Shown: in pieces, positions 14,625-29,853 of the stretch | How positions within the stretch are numbered: position 1 is the stretch's first letter | Layout: every line of letters begins with the position of its first letter | Source of the DNA: an uncultured Mycoplasmataceae bacterium | GTDB lineage: Bacteria > Bacillota_I > Bacilli_A > Mycoplasmatales > Hepatoplasmataceae | Length of the DNA stretch: 32,503 bases | Assembly: GCA_947330515.1 (NCBI GenBank) | Contig: CAMZOE010000029.1 | Location: 1-32,503 of the forward strand | Direction: 5' to 3' | Position numbers and translations under genes: made by a program | Notes under the pieces: generated by a model | What the model was told of the DNA's origin: nothing | Database searches by the model: none | What the model saw: only the letters and a program-made list of their open reading frames with translations

Positions 14625-14648
14625 CCACTCATGATTGTACACGAGTGG
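14625..14648 (-). terminator. Terminator of the ABC operon
   Basis: On the minus strand CCACTCGTG pairs with CATGAGTGG (one G-U) around TACAAT and is followed by six T. It lies about 34 bases past the stop of the last gene of the operon. Confidence 0.85.
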
Positions 14649-14681: not shown

Positions 14682-16328
14682 TTAATTATCAAAATTTCCA
14701 TAAGGAATTTTACTTATAGAAACATAATTTATTGCTTCATTTAATAAATTAGTTCTAATATCTTTAAATGAATCATCTAGTAATAAATGAGTTTTATTCA
14801 TAATGATATAAAAAGTATTAAATGACATATCTAAATTATCATCAATTAAAGTTACATCAGATTTATCAAATCCCATAACTTTATCTAATTGTTCTTTAGC
14901 AGTTCCTGATTTATCAAGTTCATTAGCTCCAATTTGTTTAAAAGCACTTTTTCAATCAAATTCTCGATAAATATAATCATATAACGATCTTAAAGGACTT
15001 GCAATAAGTGGATCTTTATGTGGATTAAGAGTATCTAAAGGTTCACCTAATATCTTAGCATCGTTTTCTACTTTTAACTCTACTAAATGATTTAAATACG
15101 TTTTTAAAACATAATAAAGATTAGAAAATTCAAAAGGATTTTCTTCTTCACTACTATGACCAATTTTTGCTAAATTAGAATAATAATATGTTTTAAGCAT
15201 AAACATTTGATTTATACTACGATATAAACTTTTAAATTGGAAAATAATAGTAAAAATTTTTAATGAAAAAATTAATGAAAAATTTTCTTGAGAAATTATT
15301 GATTGTTTATCATTTTCTTGATATGATGCTGAAATTTTTTCATCAGGAGTATCATCAACAAAATCAAAAGATAATTCTGGATTAGATAAATCATGATTTC
15401 ATCAATAATTACCATTAGTTGTTTTTGAATCAACAACGTTTTGTTGTGTAAATTCTAAAATAATTGTTTTTGAGACATTAATAGTAATTTTTTTACTATT
15501 ATAAAAAATAGGAATTTTTTTATTTCCAAACTCACCTTTTGGTGTTGCATAATTTAAAGATTGTAATCAATCACTATTTTCTTTTTCTTTATTAAAAGAA
15601 ATAACATTTTTTTTTGTTTTTTTGGGGTTTCAACCGTCTTTAGCAGTAACTTTAGCAAGCCCTGGTAAATTATTTGATAAATTTTTTAAAAAATCATTTA
15701 AATTATCAATAAAATCTTTTAAAATTTTTTTAAGTTCTTCATTAACTATATTTTTATCAATTAAATCCTTGATTTTTTTCATTAGAAATTCAGGAATATA
15801 AGGAGCAGATAAAAATATATTATTGTTATCAATTCCATTCATTATATATTCTTTTGCTGTTATTAATATTCCTGTTAATATTTCTATAGGTAATTTTTTA
15901 CTTGAAAAATCAATATTTGGTATAGTATTAACTAATAAATCTGATAGAAAAGGAATAGCTCCTATATTTTGATATCATTGTAAATTCATCGCTGTTTCTT
16001 TAGCATTAATCGCATCTTGAAGTGAAGCGTGATCATCACCATAACTTAAGGTAGTTAAAAAGTCTGAAGTTGACATATCATCAATTGTATTTTGATTATC
16101 GTTTACTTTTTCTTTATCAATCAGCGGTAATAATCTTGTATTGTTAATATCTTCTAAAACTTGAGTTTTTAAATTTTCTCTAGCTTTTTCTAGAGAAGTA
16201 AAAGAAATCAATGGTAATGTTACCATTAAACCAATAAATAAAATAACTCCAATTGTAACCCCTCAAAACATCCCACTCTTTAATTTTTTATTACGTTTAT
16301 ATTTTTTATATGCTTTATCGTTTGTCAT
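14682..16328 (-). CDS. Membrane-anchored extracytoplasmic protein of the ABC operon
   Basis: The product is 548 residues once several TGA codons are read as Trp. A basic N-terminus (MTNDKAYKKYKRNKKLKSG) precedes one membrane helix at about residues 20-45 (VTIGVILFIGLMVTLPLI). The rest is polar and should lie outside the cell. It contains helical stretches (IPEFLMKKIKDLIDKNI, LKDFIDNLNDFLKNL) and a central beta-like part (KKITINVSKTIILEF). The start has AAAGGTAA upstream and begins 18 bases after the permease stop, so it is the last gene of the operon. No known family was recognised. By position it may be the substrate-contacting subunit or an accessory protein of the transporter, which is inference. 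Confidence 0.85.
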
Positions 16329-16346
16329 GTAAAAATTACCTTTCTT

Positions 16347-17246
16347 TTATCATTTAAGGAAAGTTGTTCCTAGTATTGTAAAGATACCTGTAAACACCAA
16401 TGGTAAAATAATATTTTCTAATTGTTCTTTTGATGTTCCTCACACTGGTTGAAGAGCAGGATAATTAATAATATTATTAATAATAGTATTATCACTATCA
16501 GGGAAAATTTCTTGAAGAAAATTAGCAATTGGTCTTAATTGATCTGAAATCCCTCCAAATGCTGGAATTGAAAAACCATTCATTCAATAATGTGGAACAA
16601 CTAATGAAGCGTATTCAATTCATAATTTTTTACCACTTTCAGGTCTTGATAAGGTAATCAAGAAGTGAGGTAACAATACTCCTCCAAGAAAGAGAACTAC
16701 AAAAACATAACCAATTGATAAAAAGTTATATGATTCCGAAGTATTAGAAATTGCAAGAAAGAAAAAGGCAATTGAAAAGGAAAGAGTAATATTAATAATT
16801 CATGAATAAACTACATTCCCTCATTGAACATTTTCTCAATGCATTTGTGTAAGTATTGGTGGAATAGTTGGAGCTAACGAACCTCAATCCTCTGCTAAAA
16901 ATTGAACTGGAACCGTTAGAAATCATGATCAAAATAATAATCAAACAATTCCTAAGATTGTAACAATTAAAGTAAAAAGTAAAAAAGTAATAAATGTTGT
17001 AAATTTATTTAATTTAGTTAATCCAACAGATTTCATAAAAGCTGTTCTTTTAATTTCTTCTAGTGATGTTCCAAATTGAAACAACGCTGTAGAAAGAATT
17101 CCGATTGATATTACAGAAGGAATAATTCATCCAGATGGAATAGTATACCCTAAAATAATTAATAAAACTAAAGGAAGTACGAATGTAAATACTGATCCTG
17201 CAGATTTAAAAAATGATTTCATTTGCAATATAAATAGTGCGCGCAT
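16347..17246 (-). CDS. ABC-2-type transporter permease (second)
   Basis: This 299-residue protein is hidden under the standard code because about a dozen Trp codons are TGA. It shows six hydrophobic helices: near residues 15-35 (FTFVLPLVLLIILG), 40-60, 85-115, 150-170 (WIINITLSFSIAFFFLAI), 180-205 and 280-297 (IILPLVFTGIFTILG). The segment LEEIKRTAFMKSVGLTKLNKF after helix 2 corresponds to the ATPase-coupling region of ABC-2 permeases. AAGGAG precedes the ATG. It follows the double-ATPase gene by 27 bases and resembles the other permease of the operon in plan, so the two may form a heterodimer. Substrate unknown. Confidence 0.88.
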
Positions 17247-17273
17247 GTGATTTCTCCTTATTTTTTAAAATAG

Positions 17274-20200
17274 CTATTTTTTGCGTTTTCAATTTTTATC
17301 AACAGGTTTGTGATATTCTTTAAAACCAATTTCTTCTTTATTGGCTTTTTTTGCTTCTAGCTTTGCTCTTTTAGCATCTTTAGCAGCTTTTTTACCTTTA
17401 GATTTATTGTTTTCAGGATTTAATTTAGCTGCCTCACGTTGTTGTTGTTTTCTTAAGAATTTTTCTTCTCTAATTTTTTGAATTCTTAATCTTTTTGCTT
17501 CTTCAGCTTCTGCTTTTGCTGCTTCAGCAGCTTTTTTATCCGCTTCCGCTTTAGCAAGTTTTTTAAGACGTTCTTCTTCAAGTCTTTGTTTTTCAATTAA
17601 CTCTTTTGCTTCTTCTTTTGCTTTTTCTTCCTCAAGAGTTTTTTTATCTTCTTCTGCTTTAGCAAGTTTTTTAAGACGTTCTTCTTCAAGTCTTTGTTTT
17701 TCAACTAATGCTTTTGCTTCTATTCTTGCTTTTTCTTCAGCAAGTTTTTTATCTGCAGCAACTTTAGCAGCATCTTCTTGTGCTTTGATAAGTTTTTCTT
17801 TTTCTTTAGCTTCATTAGCTTTATCTTTTTCTTCTTTTATAATAGAAGAATTTTTTGCTTCTTCAGCTTTTTTGATTGCTTCTGCTTCTGCTCTTGCTTT
17901 AGCAAGTTTTTTAGCTTCTTCAATTTTTCAAGCCATCTCTGCTTTTTGTGCTTCTTGTTTTAAACGATACTCTTCTTCATTAAGAGGTTTTCTTAAACGT
18001 TTATTTTTAATTCTTTCAATAGATTTTTTTAATTTTGCTTTATCTGGACGATTAGCAAATTTTTCTTCCCTAACTTCACGAACTAAATCTCTTTTTTGAT
18101 AAACAAAAGAAGTTTTTTTAGGTCTTTTTAAAGGTTCGAATTCAATAATTTCCATTGTTTGAGTACTATCTTCTTCATTATAAAAATTATTGTTTTTTGG
18201 ATCGTCAATAAAGATTTCTTCCTCGATTAAAATATCTTCTTCTAATAACTTAGTTGGAGTTTCTTTTTTTGAAACCTTTTTAGGATTTAATAATGGTTCT
18301 TCTTCAATGATTACTTCATCAAATAAATTTTCGAACTTATCATCAACAATAATTTCTTCTTCAATTGATTCAAGTTTTTTAGGTATTAAATCTTCTGAAG
18401 TCATTACCACTTCATTAATAATAATTTCATCACTATTTTCTTCTTCCCTTAACGGTTTGGTAAGAATTACTTCTGTTTGAAATTCTTTAGTTACAAACTC
18501 TTCTTCAATTGTTTCAACTTCTTCATTATCTTCTTCTACTTTAATAGTTTCTTCTTGAGTTTCTTCTGGAAGTTCTTCTTCTACTTTAATAGTTTCATAA
18601 GTTGTTTCTAAAGTTAAAAATTCTTCATCTTCTTCAGAATCATTATTACCAATAATTGTTTCAATAGTATAAAACTCAGTATCTTCATCTTCTTCAACTG
18701 CTAATTCTTTAAGAGTTTTATCTGTCTCATCAATTTCTGCTAGAATTTCATCAAGTTGAGCTTTTGTATTTTCATTTTCATTAAGAACAATTTCTTTAGT
18801 TTGTTCTACATCATTATTTTTATCAAAAATAACTTCGTTGATTTCTAATTCTTCATCTTCTTCAACTTCCGCTTCTAACATTTCAATAGTTTCAGTTTCA
18901 CTGTCAATTTCATTAGTAACAAATTCGCTATCAATATCATCAGCAGCTTCTTCTTGGAAATCTTTAAATGCTTCTTCATCTAAAATATCTTTTAACTCAA
19001 GAGTGTGTTCTTCTTGTGTATCTTCTTCTTTAGTTTCTTGAATAATATTTTCTGTTAATTTATCATTTTCAACTATAGTATCTTCACTTGTAGTTGAATC
19101 TTTAAATGCGAAATTATCAATAATAAGATCAGAAGTTTTTTCAATTTTACCTTCTTCATTTAATAAAGATGTTACTTCATCTGAGAATAATTCTTCTGTA
19201 AGACGTTTAATAGCATTATATGAACGATCAAGATTATATTCTTTTCGTAAATCTTTAATAAGAACATCACGATAGACTACTCCATCTTTTAAAGCGATTA
19301 CTCTATCAGTCATATCAGCAATTTCTTTAATATTATGAGAAACTAAAATTAAAGTAGAATCATATTTAGTAAGATAATTTAAAATATAACTTTTAATTTC
19401 TTCTACTGCTTCAATATCTAAACCAGTAGAAACTTCATCTAGAATTAATAATTTAGGATTTTTTATTAAAGTAATTAAAACATTAAGACGTTGTTTTTGT
19501 CCTCCAGATAATGAATCTGCAATATGATTTCTATATTTATAAAGATTAAAAATCTTTAAAGCTTTATGAATTTCATATGTAGACATTGAAGTATGATTTG
19601 CACGTGCAAAGAAATAAATTAAATTCTTAACTGTGTACATTACCGGATAAGAAGAATCTTGGAATTGCATTCCAATTTTTGAAGTTATTTGATTTTTTGT
19701 TCTTCCAAATGAATAATAAACTTTTCCTTTAGTAGCATCTTTAATTGTTGCAATAATTTCTGTAAGTGTTGTTTTTCCAGCACCATTAGCACCAATAATA
19801 GCAACACGTTCATTTTTTTTGATTTTAAAATTAACCCCTTTAAGGATTTCTTTTTTTCCATATTTTTTAGTAATGTTATCAACAATTAAGAAATCATCTT
19901 TTTCAGCATTAGGAATATAATTTTTTCCTTCTTCAAAATCTTCATCTTCTATAGCGACTTGTTTAGCAAGATAACGATTAGTTTCTTTAGCTTTATTATC
20001 AAGTTCTTCTTGATAAAGACTTTCAAGTTCTAATGATTTTTTTCATTTCAAGAATTTTATTTGTTCTTTAGCATCAAAAATTCTTTTGTTTTCCATATAA
20101 GTTAAATATTCATAATTTGTTGTCGGTTGTTTTTTTGGTTTATATTCCTTAAAATCAAAATCCTCTGAGATATCATAATGATGTCTATTTGCAGCTTTCT

Positions 20201-20999
20201 TTTCAAAGAAATCAAATAAATAGGTTTCTACATCTCCAAATTCTTGATTAATATCTTCGATAGTTCTATCTTCAGCAATAATTCCACGATCTAACATTAC
20301 TATTCTATTTGTTAATGTTTTAATTTCTTCTGGATCATGAGAAATTAAAATTAAAGTAATTTTATTTTTAGCAATATAATCAATAATATATTTTTGAACA
20401 CGTTCAACTGAATCAATATCTAATCCTGTTGAAAGTTCATCTAAAATTAATAACTTTGGAGAATTTAATAATGAAAGTAAAATATTTAATCTTTGTCTTT
20501 GTCCACCTGATAATGAATCAGCATGGTATGACTTAAATTTAGTAAGATTAAAGATTTCTAAAAATTCATTAATTTGTTCTTTCTTTAAACTATTTCTTCC
20601 ACTCTTAGCAAAGAAATTAACTAAATCAATTACTTTGTAAGTTGGTGGATAAGAAGAATCTTGGAATTGCATTCCAATGTTAGAAGTTATTTTTTTCTTT
20701 TTGTCACCAAAAGAATAGTAAATCTTTCCTTCAGTTGGTTCTTTAATTGTTGCAATAATCTCAGTAAGAGTAGTTTTTCCAGCACCATTAGGTCCTAGAA
20801 TAGCTAAGTGTTCACCTTCCTTAATTGTAAGATTTATACCTTTAAGTACTTTTTTCGACTTATAACTCTTTGTTAAATTTCTTATATCAATTAAAACATC
20901 ATCACCAACACCATTTTGTGTATCAAAATGTGTAGACATTAATCTTAGTTTTTGTAATAATGTTTTTTTGTTTTTTTTATCTTTTTTATCTTTTGACAT
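17274..20999 (-). CDS. Fused double ABC ATPase with long acidic and coiled-coil tail
   Basis: One frame of 1241 residues is open if two TGA codons (near residues 319 and 1024) are Trp. NBD1: Walker A GPNGAGKTT 69-77, signature LSGGQ 163-167, Walker B LLILDE 183-188, H-loop H221. NBD2: Walker A GANGAGKTT 403-411, LSGGQ 497-501, LLILDE 517-522, H-loop H555. Both have intact catalytic residues and share the Q-loop phrase MQFQDSSYP. From about residue 600 to 960 the chain is extremely Glu/Asp-rich, then Lys/Glu/Ala-rich coiled coil with a repeated unit (EKQRLEEERLKKLAKAE) to the end. AAAGGAGGG precedes the start, 11 bases after the first permease stop. It should drive the two permeases of the operon. 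The tail has no known role; a cytoskeletal or scaffold contact is speculation. Confidence 0.9.
17548..17704. repeat. 49-bp exact direct repeat, period 108
   Basis: The stretches 17548-17596 and 17656-17704 are identical over 49 bases and 108 bases (36 codons) apart. They encode the repeated coiled-coil unit in the tail of the double ATPase. Identity at silent positions points to recent duplication or gene conversion. Confidence 0.85.
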
Positions 21000-21010
21000 A
21001 TTCCCTCCTT

Positions 21011-21844
21011 TTATGCATCAAATTCAAATTTTTTCATTGCTATTGGAATGATTAAAATTGTATAAACAATCGGCATAATTAAATTTAATGAAGATGCTCC
21101 TACTTTTATATATCCGTCGCTTCAATTCCTAAAATCCCAAATACTAATTTTTTGATGCACACCATTAATTATGACATCATAATTTCCACTATTAAATGCA
21201 CCTGTAATAAAGTGTGCAGAATATGTTTGTGGAAGTAATAATGAAAAAATATTCATTCATTCAATGTTAGCAAATGAAAAAATAAGTCCACCAAAATACA
21301 GAACTACAAAAAAGTATAGTAATGATAATAATTGGTATGATTCACTATTTGGAGCAATTGAAATAAAGAAAAATGTTGTCATAAATGAAACTATAATTAA
21401 TAAAATAATTCCATAAATTACCCCAACTCAATCAATTGATGCTCCTTTAAATAAAGAAATATCAATAAGTGAGTGAGTTCATGAAGTAAAGAATAACATT
21501 AGAAATGTAACTCATACAATTTCAAGAAATGATTGAAAAATAGTTCATAAAACATATCCCATTAATAATTGAGGTTTTGTTATTTGAGTAGTTCCTAATC
21601 TTTTAATTAAACTTGATGTTCTTAACTCCATAAAATTAGCGCCAAAACTTGTATTAACCACTGACATCACACCAATAGTTAATAGCGATGCATAAATTGC
21701 CATTAATTCTTTTTGACCAGTTCCTGGAGTAGCATTAACTACTGAAATCAATGTAACCACCATTACTAATGGAAAAATGAACATAAACATTGAACCGGGA
21801 TTCCTTAAAAAAGTTCTAAATTGATTTTTTAATATAGCTCCCAT
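21011..21844 (-). CDS. ABC-2-type transporter permease (first)
   Basis: The product is 277 residues with six membrane helices: about residues 17-37 (FMFIFPLVMVVTLISVV), 48-70, 100-120 (FLEIVWVTFLMLFF), 133-158 (YGIILLIIVSFMTTFFFI), 165-185 (LLSLLYFFVVLYFGGLIF) and 250-270. The segment MELRTSSLIKRLGTTQITKPQ after helix 2 matches the coupling region of ABC-2 permeases, which usually export lipids, polysaccharides, drugs or peptides. Its ATG overlaps the TAA of the upstream ATPase gene by one base (TAATG), so the two are translationally coupled. It ends 11 bases before the double ATPase. Substrate unknown. Confidence 0.88.
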
Positions 21845-23463
21845 TATTCTACCTCCTTAGTATTTTCTTCTTTTAAAATATTATTTATGTTTTCTTCAAA
21901 ATTAATTGATTTTCCTTCAATATTATTAAATTCTTCTAAGAAAACATAATCTAAATATTTCTCAACAGAACCCCATTGAAGAATTACATCTTTAATTACT
22001 AAATCTTTATAAATTTTTCCATCATAAATAATGATCATTCTTTTAGCTAAAAATTCAATTTCTTCAGGATTATGTGAAACCATTAACATTGTTGAATTAT
22101 GTTTTTCTAGATATTCTTTAATGAATAATTTAATTTTGGATCTTGCTTCAACGTCAAGACCATTTGATAATTCATCTAAAATTAATAGTTTAGGTGAGTT
22201 CAACACTGCTAATAAAATAGAAAGTCTTTGTCTTTGTCCACCAGAGAGCGCAGAAGCTCTCATTTTTTCCATTCCTTCTAATTGAAAATCAACCATTAAT
22301 TGTTCAATGTCGGATTTAGAAAGATTTGATTTTGTTGCATCAGAAAAGAATTTAATAATATCGATAGTACGATAGTAAAATGGATAAGTTGCTTCTTGGA
22401 ATTGAATTCCAATATTTTTAGAAATATCTGATTTAGATGTTCCATAAGCATAATCAATTTTTCCTGAAGTTATTGGTTTAATCATTGAGATGATTTCTAC
22501 TAATGTAGATTTACCAGCCCCATTAGCACCAACTATAGAAATTTTTTCACCTTCTCTAATAGTTAGGTTAATTCCTTTTAAAACTTTTTTATTACCATAT
22601 TCTTTATGTAAATCATGAATATTAATAACTGTATCACCTAATGAATCAATGTAATCTTGTTGTTCTTTTTCTAAAAATTCTTTTCTTTTTAAACCATAAA
22701 TAATATTTTCTGGTTCAGAAATAAAATCTTCTTCATCTTGTCTTTGTCCATGATTATCTTCTGAAAGAATTTCTTCTTGTGAAATTCTTTCTATTGCCTC
22801 GATATCATAACCTAAACTTTCTTCTTGCTCAGCTTCAACTCTTTCAATTGCTTCTATTTCAAAAACTCTATCACTATCAATTATTTTAGCGGTTACAGTT
22901 GCTTCTTCTTGTTTAAAATCAAATTCTGTATCCCTAGGATTTTTCATAGTAAATTGATTTGATTCTTGTTCAATAGTTTTTGTTTTTTCTTCATCTACAT
23001 CGTCTACATTTTGTTTATCTTCTTGTGTATCACTTGTAAATAATAAAACTTTTTCTATATCTTTAGTCTTTTCAACTTCATCTGTTTCTTCAACTTCATC
23101 TGCTTCTTCAACTTCTTCAGTTTCTTTAACAACTTTTTTTTTTTGTTCATCAACTTGAACTATATTTTGATTTTGTTCATCTGTTTTATTATCTTTAACA
23201 ATCAATTGTTCTTTCGATTGTTCTTCTTCAACAATTGATTGTTCTTCTTTGATAATTGATTGTTCTTCTTCAACAATTTCATTACCTTTTAAACCATTTA
23301 AACCATAAGTTTCATTAATCATTTGGTTTCTTCCATCAATAAGTGGAAAAAAGTAATCATGATCATTTACACTTCTTTTACGTTTTTTCAAAAACTTTTT
23401 ATGTTTTTTGGCAGTAGAAATTATTTCTTTTTGAACATTAATTTCATTTTCAAAATTATCCAT
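21844..23463 (-). CDS. ABC ATPase with a 270-residue acidic N-terminal extension
   Basis: The product is 539 residues. Residues 1-35 are basic (KKHKKFLKKRKR), 60-255 are very acidic with short repeats (VEEEQSIIKEEQSIVEEEQ; IEAIER twice), and the NBD occupies about 278-510. Walker A is GANGAGKST 312-320, the Q-loop region IGIQFQEATYP 351-361, signature LSGGQ 406-410, Walker B LLILDE 426-431, H-loop H464. The NBD is clearly related to both NBDs of the double ATPase. It is the first gene of the operon; the long extension is unlike ordinary ABC-2 ATPases of about 230-310 residues. It is probably one energising subunit for the adjacent permease. Confidence 0.92.
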   Translation of the reverse strand: MDNFENEINVQKEIISTAKKHKKFLKKRKRSVNDHDYFFPLIDGRNQMINETYGLNGLKGNEIVEEEQSIIKEEQSIVEEEQSKEQLIVKDNKTDEQNQNIVQVDEQKKKVVKETEEVEEADEVEETDEVEKTKDIEKVLLFTSDTQEDKQNVDDVDEEKTKTIEQESNQFTMKNPRDTEFDFKQEEATVTAKIIDSDRVFEIEAIERVEAEQEESLGYDIEAIERISQEEILSEDNHGQRQDEEDFISEPENIIYGLKRKEFLEKEQQDYIDSLGDTVINIHDLHKEYGNKKVLKGINLTIREGEKISIVGANGAGKSTLVEIISMIKPITSGKIDYAYGTSKSDISKNIGIQFQEATYPFYYRTIDIIKFFSDATKSNLSKSDIEQLMVDFQLEGMEKMRASALSGGQRQRLSILLAVLNSPKLLILDELSNGLDVEARSKIKLFIKEYLEKHNSTMLMVSHNPEEIEFLAKRMIIIYDGKIYKDLVIKDVILQWGSVEKYLDYVFLEEFNNIEGKSINFEENINNILKEENTKEVE

Positions 23464-23626: not shown

Positions 23627-24925
23627 CTAATCAGAAAGATTTTTTTTGATGTTTTTTTTATAAATTTCTACCCCTGGTTGGTCAAAAGGATTAATATCTA
23701 ATAAGTATCCGGAAATTGTAACACTAATAAAAAATCAATAATATAAATAACCTAATGATTTTGGTGTTTTTTCTTTTAATTGAATTATTATATTAGAAAT
23801 TCCACCTTCTTGATAATGTGCTTCTAAAACACCTTCAAAAACTTTTTGATTAATTTCCTCAAGAGTTAAATGATTTAAATAATTAATTTTCATTCCATCA
23901 TTTATATCCTTAATAAAGGTAATTGGTTTTTGAGAATTATCTTTTACAATTAAAGTTGTTTCAAAAAATGTTTTTGGTCCTTCTTGAATTATTTGCCCTA
24001 AAGAATGTAAATCTCTAGAATAATGAACTGAAAGAGGAAAAATTCCTTTAGTAGAAACTTTTCCTTCAGATTCACCAAACAATTGTTTTCATCATTCCGC
24101 TAACATTTCTAAATCATAATCATATGTAGTAAAAATTTCATGAGTAATTTTTAATTGATTATCTTTTTGATTTTGATTTAAAAGAAATCTTATAACAGCA
24201 TATCTTAAAGCAGTATTTTTTTCAAGAGAACTTTCTTTTAACAAAAATCTTTTTGCTTCTTTAGCTCCTTCTAACATTTCTCGAACGTTTATACCAACAA
24301 AAATCATCGGAAACATTCCAACTGGTGTCATCACAGAAAAACGACCACCAATTCCATTAGGTATTTCAAAAGAAGTAATTTTTTCTTGGGTTGAAAAGTC
24401 TTTTAAAATTCCTTTATTTCCAGTAATTGCAACAATATAATCATTTGCTTTTGAACCATGTTTTTCTTTTAATTTATTGGAAAAAAAATTAAAAGCAAGT
24501 GAAGGTTCAAGCGTTCCTCCTGATTTTGAAATTACACAAATTGCATACTCTTTATTTTCTAAAAATGATTCCATTTGAGAATAATATGAAGAAGACATAT
24601 CTGTACCAATAAAAAGAACTTTATCTCTTGAAGCTAATTTTCCTTCAAGAAAATCTATTGCAGATTGTGCTCCTAAAAATGATCCTCCAATTCCAATTAC
24701 AAGTAAATGATTTACTTTTAATGTTTTTAATTGATTTACTTTTTCTTCAAGTTCAAGAATCACTTCTTCTTTTACAGTTTCAGGATAATCTATTCAATCC
24801 ATAAATTCATTTCCAATACCTTCTTTGTTAAGAAGATTATTTTTAAATAATAAATTAATTTTTGGTTGCATAGAAGCAATTTCTTTTTCATTTAAGTATA
24901 CTTTTTTAGTATTTAGTTCTAACAT
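23627..24925 (-). CDS. pgi: Glucose-6-phosphate isomerase
   Basis: It interconverts glucose 6-phosphate and fructose 6-phosphate at the entry to glycolysis. The product is 432 residues, the short bacterial form. Motifs are [18 protein letters not shown] (phosphate-binding), [30 protein letters not shown], the catalytic-region [10 protein letters not shown] and the C-terminal [14 protein letters not shown]. It ends with TAG. It is transcribed away from the plus-strand membrane-protein cluster and lies upstream of the ABC operon, about 12 kb from the main glycolytic block. A TATAAT-like box at 24984-24989 suggests its own promoter. Several TGA codons are Trp, for example FMDWIDYPE. Confidence 0.97.
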
Positions 24926-25075: not shown

Positions 25076-27400
25076 ATGAGTGAAAAAAGACGAACAAAAG
25101 AGCTCGAATTAAATACAGATTTAGATAATCAAGGAGCCATCCCCATAAAAGATTTAAACATAGATAAAAATATAGAAAGTAAAAATAATAATTCAAAAAG
25201 TATTGAAGAAACTTTAGGAAAGAAAGATAACCCTAAAGAAGATTTGTTCAATAATAAAGAAAACTCAAATAACACTAATAAGGAAAAAGATAATTTAGCT
25301 TCTAATAAAACAAAAAAAGATAAAGAAGTAGAAGAAAAACCTGAAATTATTTTGGATATTGACAAAGAAGAAGAAAAAAATAAAAAAGATAAAAAAGAAG
25401 CTTCTAAACCAAATAATTATAAAGATATTGATAAAGAATTTGAAAAAGATGAAAAGAAAAAGAAAATTATAAAAATTTCTGTAATAACATTCATTGTTGC
25501 TTTATTAATCACAGGAATAATTGTAGGTTCTCTTGCAATTGCCGGTGTTGGTGTTTTTGGATCAGAAGATAATGGTGCAGGGTTTTGAAATTTTGATGAT
25601 TTAAATAAATGAATAGAATCTTCAGAAACAAAACAAACAAAAATCACTAATACTGAAAACATTTTAAAAGATAGAGCTACTATCTATACTTATGATACAT
25701 TAGGAAAAGAAGGAAGACTTTTAATGACTCCTAGTGAATCAAAAGATGCAAAAGAAAGAGCTCTAAGAAGTGCTAATCATAAAATCGATACTCAAAAAGA
25801 AGATTTAAGAAAATCTGAAGGAAAAAATTGAGAAGATGAATGAGATAAAGAACTAGTTGGAATGGGATTCTCTATTGCATCTCAAGGTGGAGAAGATCAA
25901 TACCGTGATAGTTTAGTAAATGATTCTTTACAAAATTCAATTTTAGAAGCATTTAGTGGAAGTTCGCATTTAACTGCAGCAACAAAACAAGTAAGTAATA
26001 ATAAAGGTTATGAATTTTCAAGTTCAAATCTTGGGAGTGATACTTCAAAAAAATATCGTGTTATTAAAAAAGGTGATGTAGATAATGAAGTAAACATTGA
26101 AAGTCTATTAGATTTTTATATTAAATATAATAAACCAATTAATTTTGATGAAGGAATAATTCCATTTAGAATTACTGATTTTGATAAAACTCACAAAATT
26201 ATAAATTTAGAAGACTCTGAAATAGAAAGTAAACATCCATTAACATTTGCTTCTTCAGAAGATTTAACAAAATTATTTTATCTTTCTGATGCTTTTTCTA
26301 AAGATAAACTTGATAAAGGATTTGAAAAAATATTAAATCCTACAAATAGTGGTATAGTAAAACTAAACAATTTAGAAATTACTACTCCAGAACCAGATCC
26401 AGGTCCTACACCGGAATTAAGTCATTCTTCTTATGAAATTACTAACGATGATCCTGCACCAGATCCAGGACCAACTGTAGATACAAATGAAACAGAAGTA
26501 TTACTTCTTGATGCTCTTATGAGTAATGATATCCTCACTGGAGATACTGATGGATTAAAAGAATTTTTCAATAATGAACTAAAACTTCTTTCTAAAGCAA
26601 GTGATATTGAAACTTTAAAAGAAGATAATCCTGCATTATTTAAAACATTTGAAGGTGATTCTTACAAAGCATTAAAACAATTTGCAAATAGCACAGATTC
26701 AGAAAAAGCAAAAATTTCTTTCACAGAAATAGATTCAACTGCTAATAATAAATTTATTATTGGTTTTGAAACAGATGGTTTACATCTTTTAAAAATGAAC
26801 GGTTTCAATTTTGATGATGAAAAAAATAATTATAAAGAAGAGTATTCTCAAAATTTAGTAACTCATGATTTAGATGTAGCATTTAAAGCTCCTGATGTTT
26901 CAAAAGAAGAAAATCTTTATGGTATATGAAATGACTTTAATACTTGAATTAATGATAATTATGAATTTTTAATTCTTAATTCAGCTTACGAAGAAGGAAT
27001 TAACTTAATTAGTAATCCAGAATATCCTGATTGAACAGATGTTATTACAGAAAATGAAATTACAATGCAAGATCTTGAAGAACAACTTTATCGTACTACT
27101 TCACTTGAAATGTTTACTAATTTCTTTAATAAAAAAATGGAATATAAAAACTTTATCAAAAAATATGGTGATAAAGAAGAATTTACTTCACCATTAGACT
27201 TAACAAAAGATTCTAGTGAATATACTTTCCTAAAAAATGTTGTTTACTCCGAAAATGGTTTTTCGAGTGAAGAAAAATGAAATAAATTTATGATTAACTA
27301 CAAAGATGGTGTCGGTGACCTTTATGGTGCAATCCAAATCTTTACTAGTGAAACAAAATATTATTCAAAAGGAGGGAACAAATATGAAAAAAATAACTAA
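25076..27400 (+). CDS. Large single-helix membrane protein, P80-like position
   Basis: The frame is open for 774 residues with several TGA Trp codons. Residues 1-132 are cytosolic-looking and highly charged (Lys, Glu, Asn), 133-158 form a membrane helix (ISVITFIVALLITGIIVGSL), and the rest lies outside. Just after the helix, residues about 215-285 (ALRSANHKIDTQKEDLRK, then GKNWEDEWDKEL) resemble the N-terminal helical region of PrsA/SurA-type secretion chaperones; this is inference. A Pro/Asp-rich linker with PEPDPGPTPE and PAPDPGPT lies at about 440-465. It overlaps the next gene by 17 bases. Together with that gene and a HIT protein it matches the layout of the mycoplasma P80-P60-HinT locus, but direct homology could not be tested. 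Confidence 0.85.
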
Positions 27401-28835
27401 AATGATTTATGGTTTAGGATTTACTTTTGCCGCTTTATATTCAATTCCTACTGCTCTATATATTAATAGATCATTAAATAATAATTATTTAATCATTCAT
27501 AATGGTAATGAAATAGTAAAAAGTAAAAAAAATGATAATGCTTATTTACTTGATGGAAAAAATTCTGAAGAAAAAGCTAAATTTATTGAACTAGGTTTTT
27601 ATAAAAATGCTATTTATGGTTTTGATTTCAAAAGTGATGAAGAAGCAATTAAATCAGATAATCCAGGAGCAGATAGTATTCTTACAAAATATAGTCCATT
27701 AAAAGATACTGGAAAAATAACTAAAGAATTTTATTCAAATATCCATATGGCATATACTGAATATACCATTATTAAAAATACAGATTTAAGTGGTGTTTCT
27801 TTTTCAGAATATATTAGTAGTCAAATTATGGCCAATAAAGCATTAGCTATTAATTGAATTCCAATTTTAGAAGAAGAATATGAAACGTCTAAAGATTTTT
27901 TTAGTGATTCAACTTTTGATAAAGATAAAAAAATTGTTGCCTTAGAACAATTAGATTCAACTATTGATTTTGATTTAGCAGCAAATAAATTTATTTATCA
28001 AACACTTTATTTATTTCAAGAAAGTGTAAATAGAGAATTTGATTACAAAATTACTGCTCAACTAAAAACATTAAAACCAATGTTAATGTGATATGCAAGT
28101 TTTACTAATACTGGCGATTGACTTAATGTTGATACTGAAAACTTTAAAACTATTGATGATTTAATCAATGGTGGTAGTGGTGCTTCAGGAACTATTAATG
28201 GAAACGTTAATAATGATGAAAACATTTTAGGTGATATTGGTTTTGAAGGAATAATCAATAAATCTAGTAGTTCTTTAACATTAATTGATGATGTATGAAC
28301 TTATAATAATAGTTGAATTATAAATCCAATAGCAAATGAATGAAGTACAGCTTCTTCAAGCTTCTTTAGTAATTCGGTAGAAGTCAAAGATCTTCCTTTT
28401 TATAAAGTTGATGATTCTATTATTAATCTTGATAGTAGTTGAGTTGATGGTTGAACTTTAAAAGCAAAAACATTATATCCATTTATTTTTGGATTAAATT
28501 ATCAAGATAGTAGTAGTCAATCACCTGGATATGCCGATGCTTTCTATTATTCAATTTTTGCTAACACTGATAGTGATGGTAATTTTGTTAAAACAGATAA
28601 TGTTACTAAAGAAAGTAAAAGTATTATTGATGTTATTTTTCCAGATACAGATCCAGCTAAAAAATGACAAAAAGAATTTGTTACTATTTTATTAATTGAT
28701 GATGTTATCTCTAATAATTCTAGAACCATGTTAAATACTCAATATTTCTGAAAAGATAAAGGATATTATATTGAACTTAGTGGAAAAATGAAAACTATTT
28801 ACGAAACATTAATCGATGAAGGAATTCAAAAATAA
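27384..28835 (+). CDS. Membrane-anchored surface protein, P60-like position
   Basis: The product is 483 residues, starting MKKITKMIYGLGFTFAALYS, one N-terminal membrane segment without a lipobox Cys, then an extracytoplasmic body rich in Asn, Asp, Ser and Trp (about a dozen TGA Trp codons). AAAGGAGGG at 27367-27375 sets the start, which lies inside the end of the previous gene in another frame, so the pair is coupled. The body contains helical parts (AANKFIYQTLYLFQES) and a Ser-rich stretch near residue 320. A terminator follows at 28876. By position it is the partner of the 774-residue protein; no domain was recognised with confidence. Confidence 0.85.
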
Positions 28836-29466: not shown

Positions 29467-29853
29467 ATGAAAAGTATATTTGAAAAAATTTTGAATAAAG
29501 ATATTCCTGGAGAAATACTTTATGAAAATGAAAAAATTTTTGTAATTGTGGATATCAATCCTAACGAACTAGGACATGTTTTAATCATTCCAAAAGAATT
29601 AAAAAAAAATATTTTCGAAGAAAACGATGAAACAATAATTGAATTATTCAAAATATCTAAAAAAATAAAAACTGTATATGAAGAAAAATTAAATGCAAAA
29701 GGTTTTAAAGTTACTTTTAATGTGAATGAAGCTGGAGGTCAAGTAATATTCCATACTCACCTACACTTAATTCCCTTCTATGATGAAAAGCAAAATAGTA
29801 AAACGCTTTCATCTAAACAAATAGAAGAAATTAAAATCTTATTATCAAAATAA
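29467..29853 (+). CDS. hit: HIT (histidine triad) family protein, HinT-like
   Basis: The product is 128 residues. It starts SIFEKILNKDIPGEILYENE, the common start of HinT purine-nucleoside phosphoramidases, and has VIVDINPNELGHVLIIPK, then FNVNEAGGQVIFHTHLHLIP with the catalytic HxHxH triad complete. HIT proteins of this type hydrolyse adenosine 5'-phosphoramidates in the cytosol. In Mycoplasma hominis HinT has been reported to interact with the membrane proteins P60 and P80 encoded beside it. The two large membrane proteins just upstream here give a similar setting, with a small extra membrane gene between. A 16-bp-stem terminator follows. Confidence 0.95.
   Translation: MKSIFEKILNKDIPGEILYENEKIFVIVDINPNELGHVLIIPKELKKNIFEENDETIIELFKISKKIKTVYEEKLNAKGFKVTFNVNEAGGQVIFHTHLHLIPFYDEKQNSKTLSSKQIEEIKILLSK

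Follow-up and report, generated by a model that had tools for sequence, protein, structure and literature searches.

The window, a stretch of 32,503 nucleotides (contig C29) from a hepatoplasmatacean genome, carries five adjacent minus-strand genes, which encode in order an ATPase (A), a permease (B), a fused double ATPase (C), a second permease (D) and an anchored protein (E), and this combination of three NBDs with two permeases raises the question of whether the genes build one export machine or two. A first-pass annotation had favored a single, undescribed machine. The comparisons presented here make it probable that the locus instead encodes two ABC-2/type V exporters arranged in tandem, with pgi on one side and a tRNA cluster on the other. 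The genome (G000; 832,759 bases in 85 contigs, about 84% complete) represents its genus alone among the sampled genomes, and the best relatives belong to the Hepatoplasmataceae, which are mollicute gut symbionts of isopods and other invertebrates. Permease B alone as a query against genome contigs gave no match, but an alignment query recovered named relatives; six of the eight named loci matched belong to the Hepatoplasmataceae (Ca. Hepatoplasma scabrum, H. crinochetorum Ps, H. vulgare, Ca. Tyloplasma litorale and two MAGs).

ORFs were read with translation table 4 (TGA=Trp), and their coordinates bear out the earlier description of five genes on a single strand with gaps of 27 bases or fewer and one overlap. 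Genes A and B overlap by 1 nt, and the remaining junctions measure 11 nt (B/C), 27 nt (C/D) and 18 nt (D/E). A purine-rich, ribosome-binding-like stretch lies 5’ of the ATG in all five genes: GAGG for A, AAGGAGG for B, AAAGGAGGG for C, AAGGAG for D and a weaker GAAAGG for E. A strong terminator-like hairpin of 9 pairs (14625..14648, minus strand; CCACTCGTGTACAATCATGAGTGG then TTTTTT) is located 34 nt 3’ of E, and no terminator-like hairpin was found on the minus strand inside the five genes. Because the junctions are short and the sole strong terminator-like hairpin follows E, genes A to E are likely co-transcribed. Pfam matches, motifs, spacing and the hairpin all support the proposal that the genes are of the ABC-2 export type and probably form an operon; no solute-binding protein was found among the five. 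The operon is flanked by pgi (23627-24925) on one side and a tRNA-Tyr/Gln/Lys/Leu cluster on the other. Elsewhere in the window (25076-28835 and 29467-29853), two proteins that look anchored or secreted are followed by one with a HIT domain. The arrangement resembles that of P80/P60/HinT in other mollicutes (PMC1173108), the HIT domain being the part of this resemblance that was tested.

The first of the two exporters would consist of A and B. Gene A (21844..23463, minus strand; 539 aa) has one Pfam ABC_tran match, corresponding to a single NBD (about 22629-21928) in which all motifs are intact: Walker A GANGAGKST, Q-loop QFQEATYP, LSGGQ, DE after Walker B, and SH. This NBD is 47% identical to the first NBD of C and is preceded by an acidic N-terminal extension of 278 aa with a net charge of -42 (23463-22630). 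Gene B (21011..21844, minus strand; 277 aa, 6 TM) is an ABC-2/type V permease with a Pfam ABC2_membrane match (1.8e-9). Its AlphaFold model, built from an alignment of 14 sequences, has a pLDDT of 78, and the matches listed by Foldseek for this model are type V structures (ABCH, ABCG, NosDFY, KpsMT, Wzm-Wzt) with a best TM-score of about 0.6. The best PDB sequence matches of A are the NBDs of ABCA lipid transporters. Together, the type V matches of B and the ABCA matches of A support an ATP-driven type V export cycle. On the model of the type V fold, ATP would close the NBD pair, the permease dimer would be shifted by the coupling helices, and the substrate, lipid-like or a peptide, would be pushed or flipped, presumably outward. 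At a guess from the fold, the substrate class may be lipid, peptide or glycolipid; the first-pass annotation rightly assigned no substrate, and no matching characterized system was found.

Comparison of gene order, as the same annotation had suggested, places A and B in a conserved setting and C-D-type genes elsewhere in relatives. In relatives, the first of these loci (locus 1) consists of pgi, one single-NBD ATPase and one or two permeases, followed in most cases by tRNAs, and this pgi-ATPase-permease-tRNA arrangement is present across the Hepatoplasmataceae. The pgi-linked ATPases of relatives are orthologues of A, which is sister to the copy in G002 (tree support 95/94), which is likewise paired with a single permease. 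B clusters with the locus-1 permeases, with moderate support on long branches (87/60). Exporter 1 would descend from the family’s pgi-linked exporter, with the single-NBD A predicted to dimerize on a B homodimer as A2B2.

Locus 1 also carries some additional features in relatives. The Hepatoplasma pgi-linked ATPases (L032:7669-9039, L033:8260-9270, L034:8190-9212) start with what looks by sequence like a short SAP/HeH-like stretch, LTVQELKDELKKQNIKFKSSDKKADLIKLLE, an odd beginning for an ABC ATPase. In two other cases, the pgi-linked permease is followed by a gene for a 244-aa exported or anchored protein with a carbohydrate-binding look (L035:7587-8321) or for a 493-aa protein with a C-terminal anchor (L036:7998-9479), the latter showing no similarity to E when the two were compared.

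The second exporter would be built around gene C (17274..20999, minus strand; 1241 aa), a fused double ATPase with two ABC_tran matches and two complete motif sets. The ATG at 20999 is a better start than the TTG at 21125 given by the ORF tool, because GGAGG precedes the ATG while the TTG frame overlaps B. Pfam and motifs delimit NBD1 (residues about 36-290; 20130..20894) and NBD2 (residues about 370-612; 19164..19892), which are separated by a linker of ~80 aa. Their Walker A motifs read GPNGAGKTT and GANGAGKTT, respectively; both have the Q-loop QFQDSSYP, LSGGQ, DE after Walker B in the form DE(L/V)STGLD, and SH, and thus constitute two canonical ATP sites. Motif inspection therefore agrees with the first-pass description of three NBDs with intact motifs and a similar Q-loop ending in YP. 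The very large acidic and coiled-coil extensions reported there are also present, as seen from the charge and composition of A and C. In C, the C-terminal extension (17277..19163) is acidic over residues 613-1000 (about 388 aa, net charge -87); residues 1001-1241 (241 aa, with 54-bp imperfect repeats) are rich in Ala/Lys/Glu and coiled-coil-like. Such acidic and coiled-coil tails vary across the Hepatoplasmataceae and define nothing.

Among 148 Mycoplasmatales genomes, one long frame with two NBDs was found only in the Hepatoplasmataceae at the threshold used. The two NBDs of C are 52% identical, and each is nearer to the other than to either domain, N or C, of the fusions in relatives. Trees in which the two NBDs of C group with the relatives’ N or C domains were not rejected (AU p 0.098 and 0.389), so that shared descent with those fusions may hold, while the tree tentatively suggests an independent origin of the fusion in C. 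Two NBDs per chain with a linker of ~80 aa would also be expected of an ABC-F-like translation factor that lies in the operon by chance and is no transporter ATPase, and ribo_prot_ABC_F is the top NCBIfam profile for the whole C chain. This identity is nevertheless highly improbable: the profile score is 263.6 against a curated cut-off of 380 bits, C has LSGGQ and DE(L/V)STGLD instead of the ABC-F motif DEPTNHLD, Pfam detects no ABC-F extension domain, and both NBDs fall inside the exporter clade of the tree. The sub-cut-off score and the motifs led to rejection of C as an ABC-F protein. An RbsA-type fused importer ATPase was rejected as well, since both sites of C are canonical and the permeases are of the ABC-2 type.

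Gene D (16347..17246, minus strand; 299 aa) is an ABC-2 type permease recognized by homology and its 6 TM segments, with no Pfam match. It is 39–42% identical to a permease of Tyloplasma that belongs to a second locus of the family (locus 2), but is without the outer loop of ~200 aa seen in its nearest relatives. D clusters with the locus-2 permeases (89/76 to 85/81), a grouping with moderate support and long branches. Locus 2 in relatives comprises a fused double-NBD ATPase of 750–835 aa and two to four permeases, and sits apart from the pgi site, beside engB/thrS or fakA (engB and fakA as presumed from their sequences). An apparent open frame of 13,708 aa that spans the double ATPase of G003 is an artefact of sequence read as N. 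No locus-2-type genes were found at the fakA site in the window’s genome. In the Tyloplasma-type fused ATPases (L041:7518-9770, L082:9824-12109, L083:7408-9807), Walker A and the Q-loop of NBD2 are separated by a long coiled-coil-like insert. C and D share with the family’s double-NBD exporters the feature of two NBDs in one chain adjoining a permease of the locus-2 clade. A firm link between C-D and locus 2 is opposed by the NBDs of C, which group with each other and not firmly with the locus-2 NBDs. In the proposed exporter 2, the two NBDs of C would form one intramolecular ATP sandwich, and C would drive a permease pair containing D, either D2 or D plus another permease.

Gene E (14682..16328, minus strand; 548 aa) encodes a protein with a single TM helix near its N-terminus (residues 23-41) and a body that is predicted to lie outside. 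No relatives of E were found in 40 genomes, PDB, Pfam, NCBIfam, PHROGs or PADLOC, and an AlphaFold model of E alone (pLDDT 36) was discarded as unusable. The possibility that E is a detached outer loop of the locus-2 permeases was rejected (no similarity; hhalign probability 0.2%), and E showed no similarity to the P80-like protein or to the anchored protein that follows the permease in G002. Because E is the last gene, has an outer topology and follows a D without the outer loop of its relatives, it is a likely outer partner of exporter 2, with which it would act from outside the cell through its one-helix anchor. A role of the locus in anti-phage defense was considered and rejected: there were only generic ATPase matches (such as mad3, mad8, AbiLi and AriA), and B, D and E had none.

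Several observations could be taken to favor one machine, in which a B-D heterodimer uses the NBD pair of C and A is an extra regulatory NBD. The genes follow one another tightly, two of them overlapping by 1 nt, and only one terminator is seen; the three NBDs are closely paralogous and have near-identical Q-loops. However, the ATPase motifs of A are complete, so that A is not a degenerate regulatory NBD, and the A-B type is complete on its own in relatives, with C-D-like genes elsewhere; a single machine of this kind is accordingly improbable. A B-D heterodimer that uses A and C together may also be envisaged. The first-pass proposal of three NBDs serving two permeases in one machine is not borne out, as the orthologues of A-B form an exporter of their own with one NBD and C-D resemble a second exporter located elsewhere. 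The three NBDs and two permeases of the operon are best resolved as A2B2 plus a C-D exporter because relatives carry the A-B and C-D types separately, and it is from these relatives that we infer the stoichiometry. The simplest reading of the sequence is that a C-D-type exporter now lies downstream of the A-B exporter. Its position at the pgi site, observed in this one genome, may reflect a move, a copy or an older arrangement. The label of an undescribed system does not hold for the five-gene whole; it applies only to the fused double-NBD exporter and to the orphan E.

The excess of NBDs over permeases that characterizes the operon is reversed genome-wide. A census with one permease profile built from Hepatoplasmataceae and with PF00005 covered 10 related genomes, several of them incomplete, and its counts rest on these searches. 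ABC-2-like permeases number 6 in the window’s genome, 8 in G003 and G004, 9 in G007 and G009 and 11 in G005. The complete Hepatoplasma genomes have 9–11 such genes, and there are 3–4 NBDs close to C per complete genome (3 in Hepatoplasma, as one single and one double). Across the Hepatoplasmataceae, ABC-2 permeases are far more numerous than ABC-2 NBDs. Other Mycoplasmatales families gave 0–4 matches, a contrast that is biased because the profile was built from Hepatoplasmataceae. All eight genomes with a fused ATPase, and neither of the two without, have permeases lacking an NBD within 4.5 kb (3–5 per genome); if ancestry is ignored, the probability of this distribution arising by chance is 1 in 45, and both negatives are incomplete genomes. 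A few of these permeases lie near contig ends, and in fragmented genomes a missing neighbor may reflect assembly loss.

The orphan permeases placed in the tree fall outside the locus-1 permease clade. Some occur in tandem arrays of three to five genes that are ATPase-free within about 50 kb (L117:7112-12435, L118:7365-10510, G003:C1:349902-353940), including five tandem permeases of 6 TM each in H. scabrum (L117) and four in G003, with no PF00005 match within that distance. The window’s genome has four NBD-less permeases (C44:13185-14843, L079; C46:16854-17651, L078; C5:19819-20646, L123), of which two have a SpoU methylase gene and metK as neighbors, a third lies next to a dinB-like gene, and the fourth stands alone. 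The co-occurrence of orphan permeases with the fused ATPase suggests a shared engine, and ATPase sharing is known among importers (PMC4519317). It is a tentative but reasonable possibility that C and its counterparts in relatives energize several scattered ABC-2 permeases. Against this, the pairing of ATPase and permeases rests on co-occurrence, the 10 genomes include several incomplete ones, the count is uncorrected for ancestry, and the family-derived profile and possible assembly loss affect the numbers. A further step, that such a network evolved and that in the window’s lineage its engine moved into an older A2B2 operon and works with a new E, is more doubtful.

The preferred reading, two exporters side by side, makes the operon a pair of exporters of known kind, in which the unusual part is the fused ATPase, a family trait. 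Its significance lies in a family-wide fused NBD pair that belongs to an exporter and keeps both ATP sites intact. Together with the arrays of ATPase-less permeases, it makes the sharing of ATPases among exporters a testable idea. A further lesson is one of caution, as the NBDs and permeases of one operon need not be one machine.

Several known systems invite comparison. ABC-2/type V exporters (Wzm-Wzt, KpsMT, NosFY and the ABCG/ABCA fold) have the same exporter-clade NBDs and 6-TM permeases; the resemblance is seen in the NBD motifs of A, C-NBD1 and C-NBD2, in the fold model of B, and for D by homology and 6 TM only. Exporter 2 differs from them in that its two NBDs share one chain, which carries long acidic and coiled tails. 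KpsMT and its partner KpsE (PMC11041684) offer a functional analogy for E only, with no detected sequence relation. Bacillus subtilis ytrBCDEF, one operon modeled as YtrB2CD plus YtrE2F2 (PMC11466899, PMC8060467), similarly combines two ATPases with several permeases and is a precedent for the two-exporter reading, but has no fused ATPase, and its second unit is type VII (FtsX/MacB-like). The double-NBD locus of Tyloplasma and Hepatoplasma has the same fused ATPase with flanking ABC-2 permeases; it differs in its position beside engB/thrS or fakA and in its 2–4 permeases with large outer loops. No description of that locus was found in the literature searched, and at least five ABC systems, with no substrate assigned, are reported in Tyloplasma (PMC10928387). 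MsmK of Streptococcus, one ATPase serving several carbohydrate importers (PMC4519317), is likened to C only as an analogy for a shared engine, its partners being importers. NBD fusion is described as relatively rare in prokaryotic ABC transporters and of unclear purpose; in B. subtilis, the only fused NBD pairs found were those of two importers, RbsA and NupO, each with one degenerate site (PMC11466899). Like C, the RbsA/NupO importers have two NBDs per polypeptide serving separate permeases, but they belong to the type II importers and one of their sites is degenerate, whereas C combines two canonical sites with exporter permeases.
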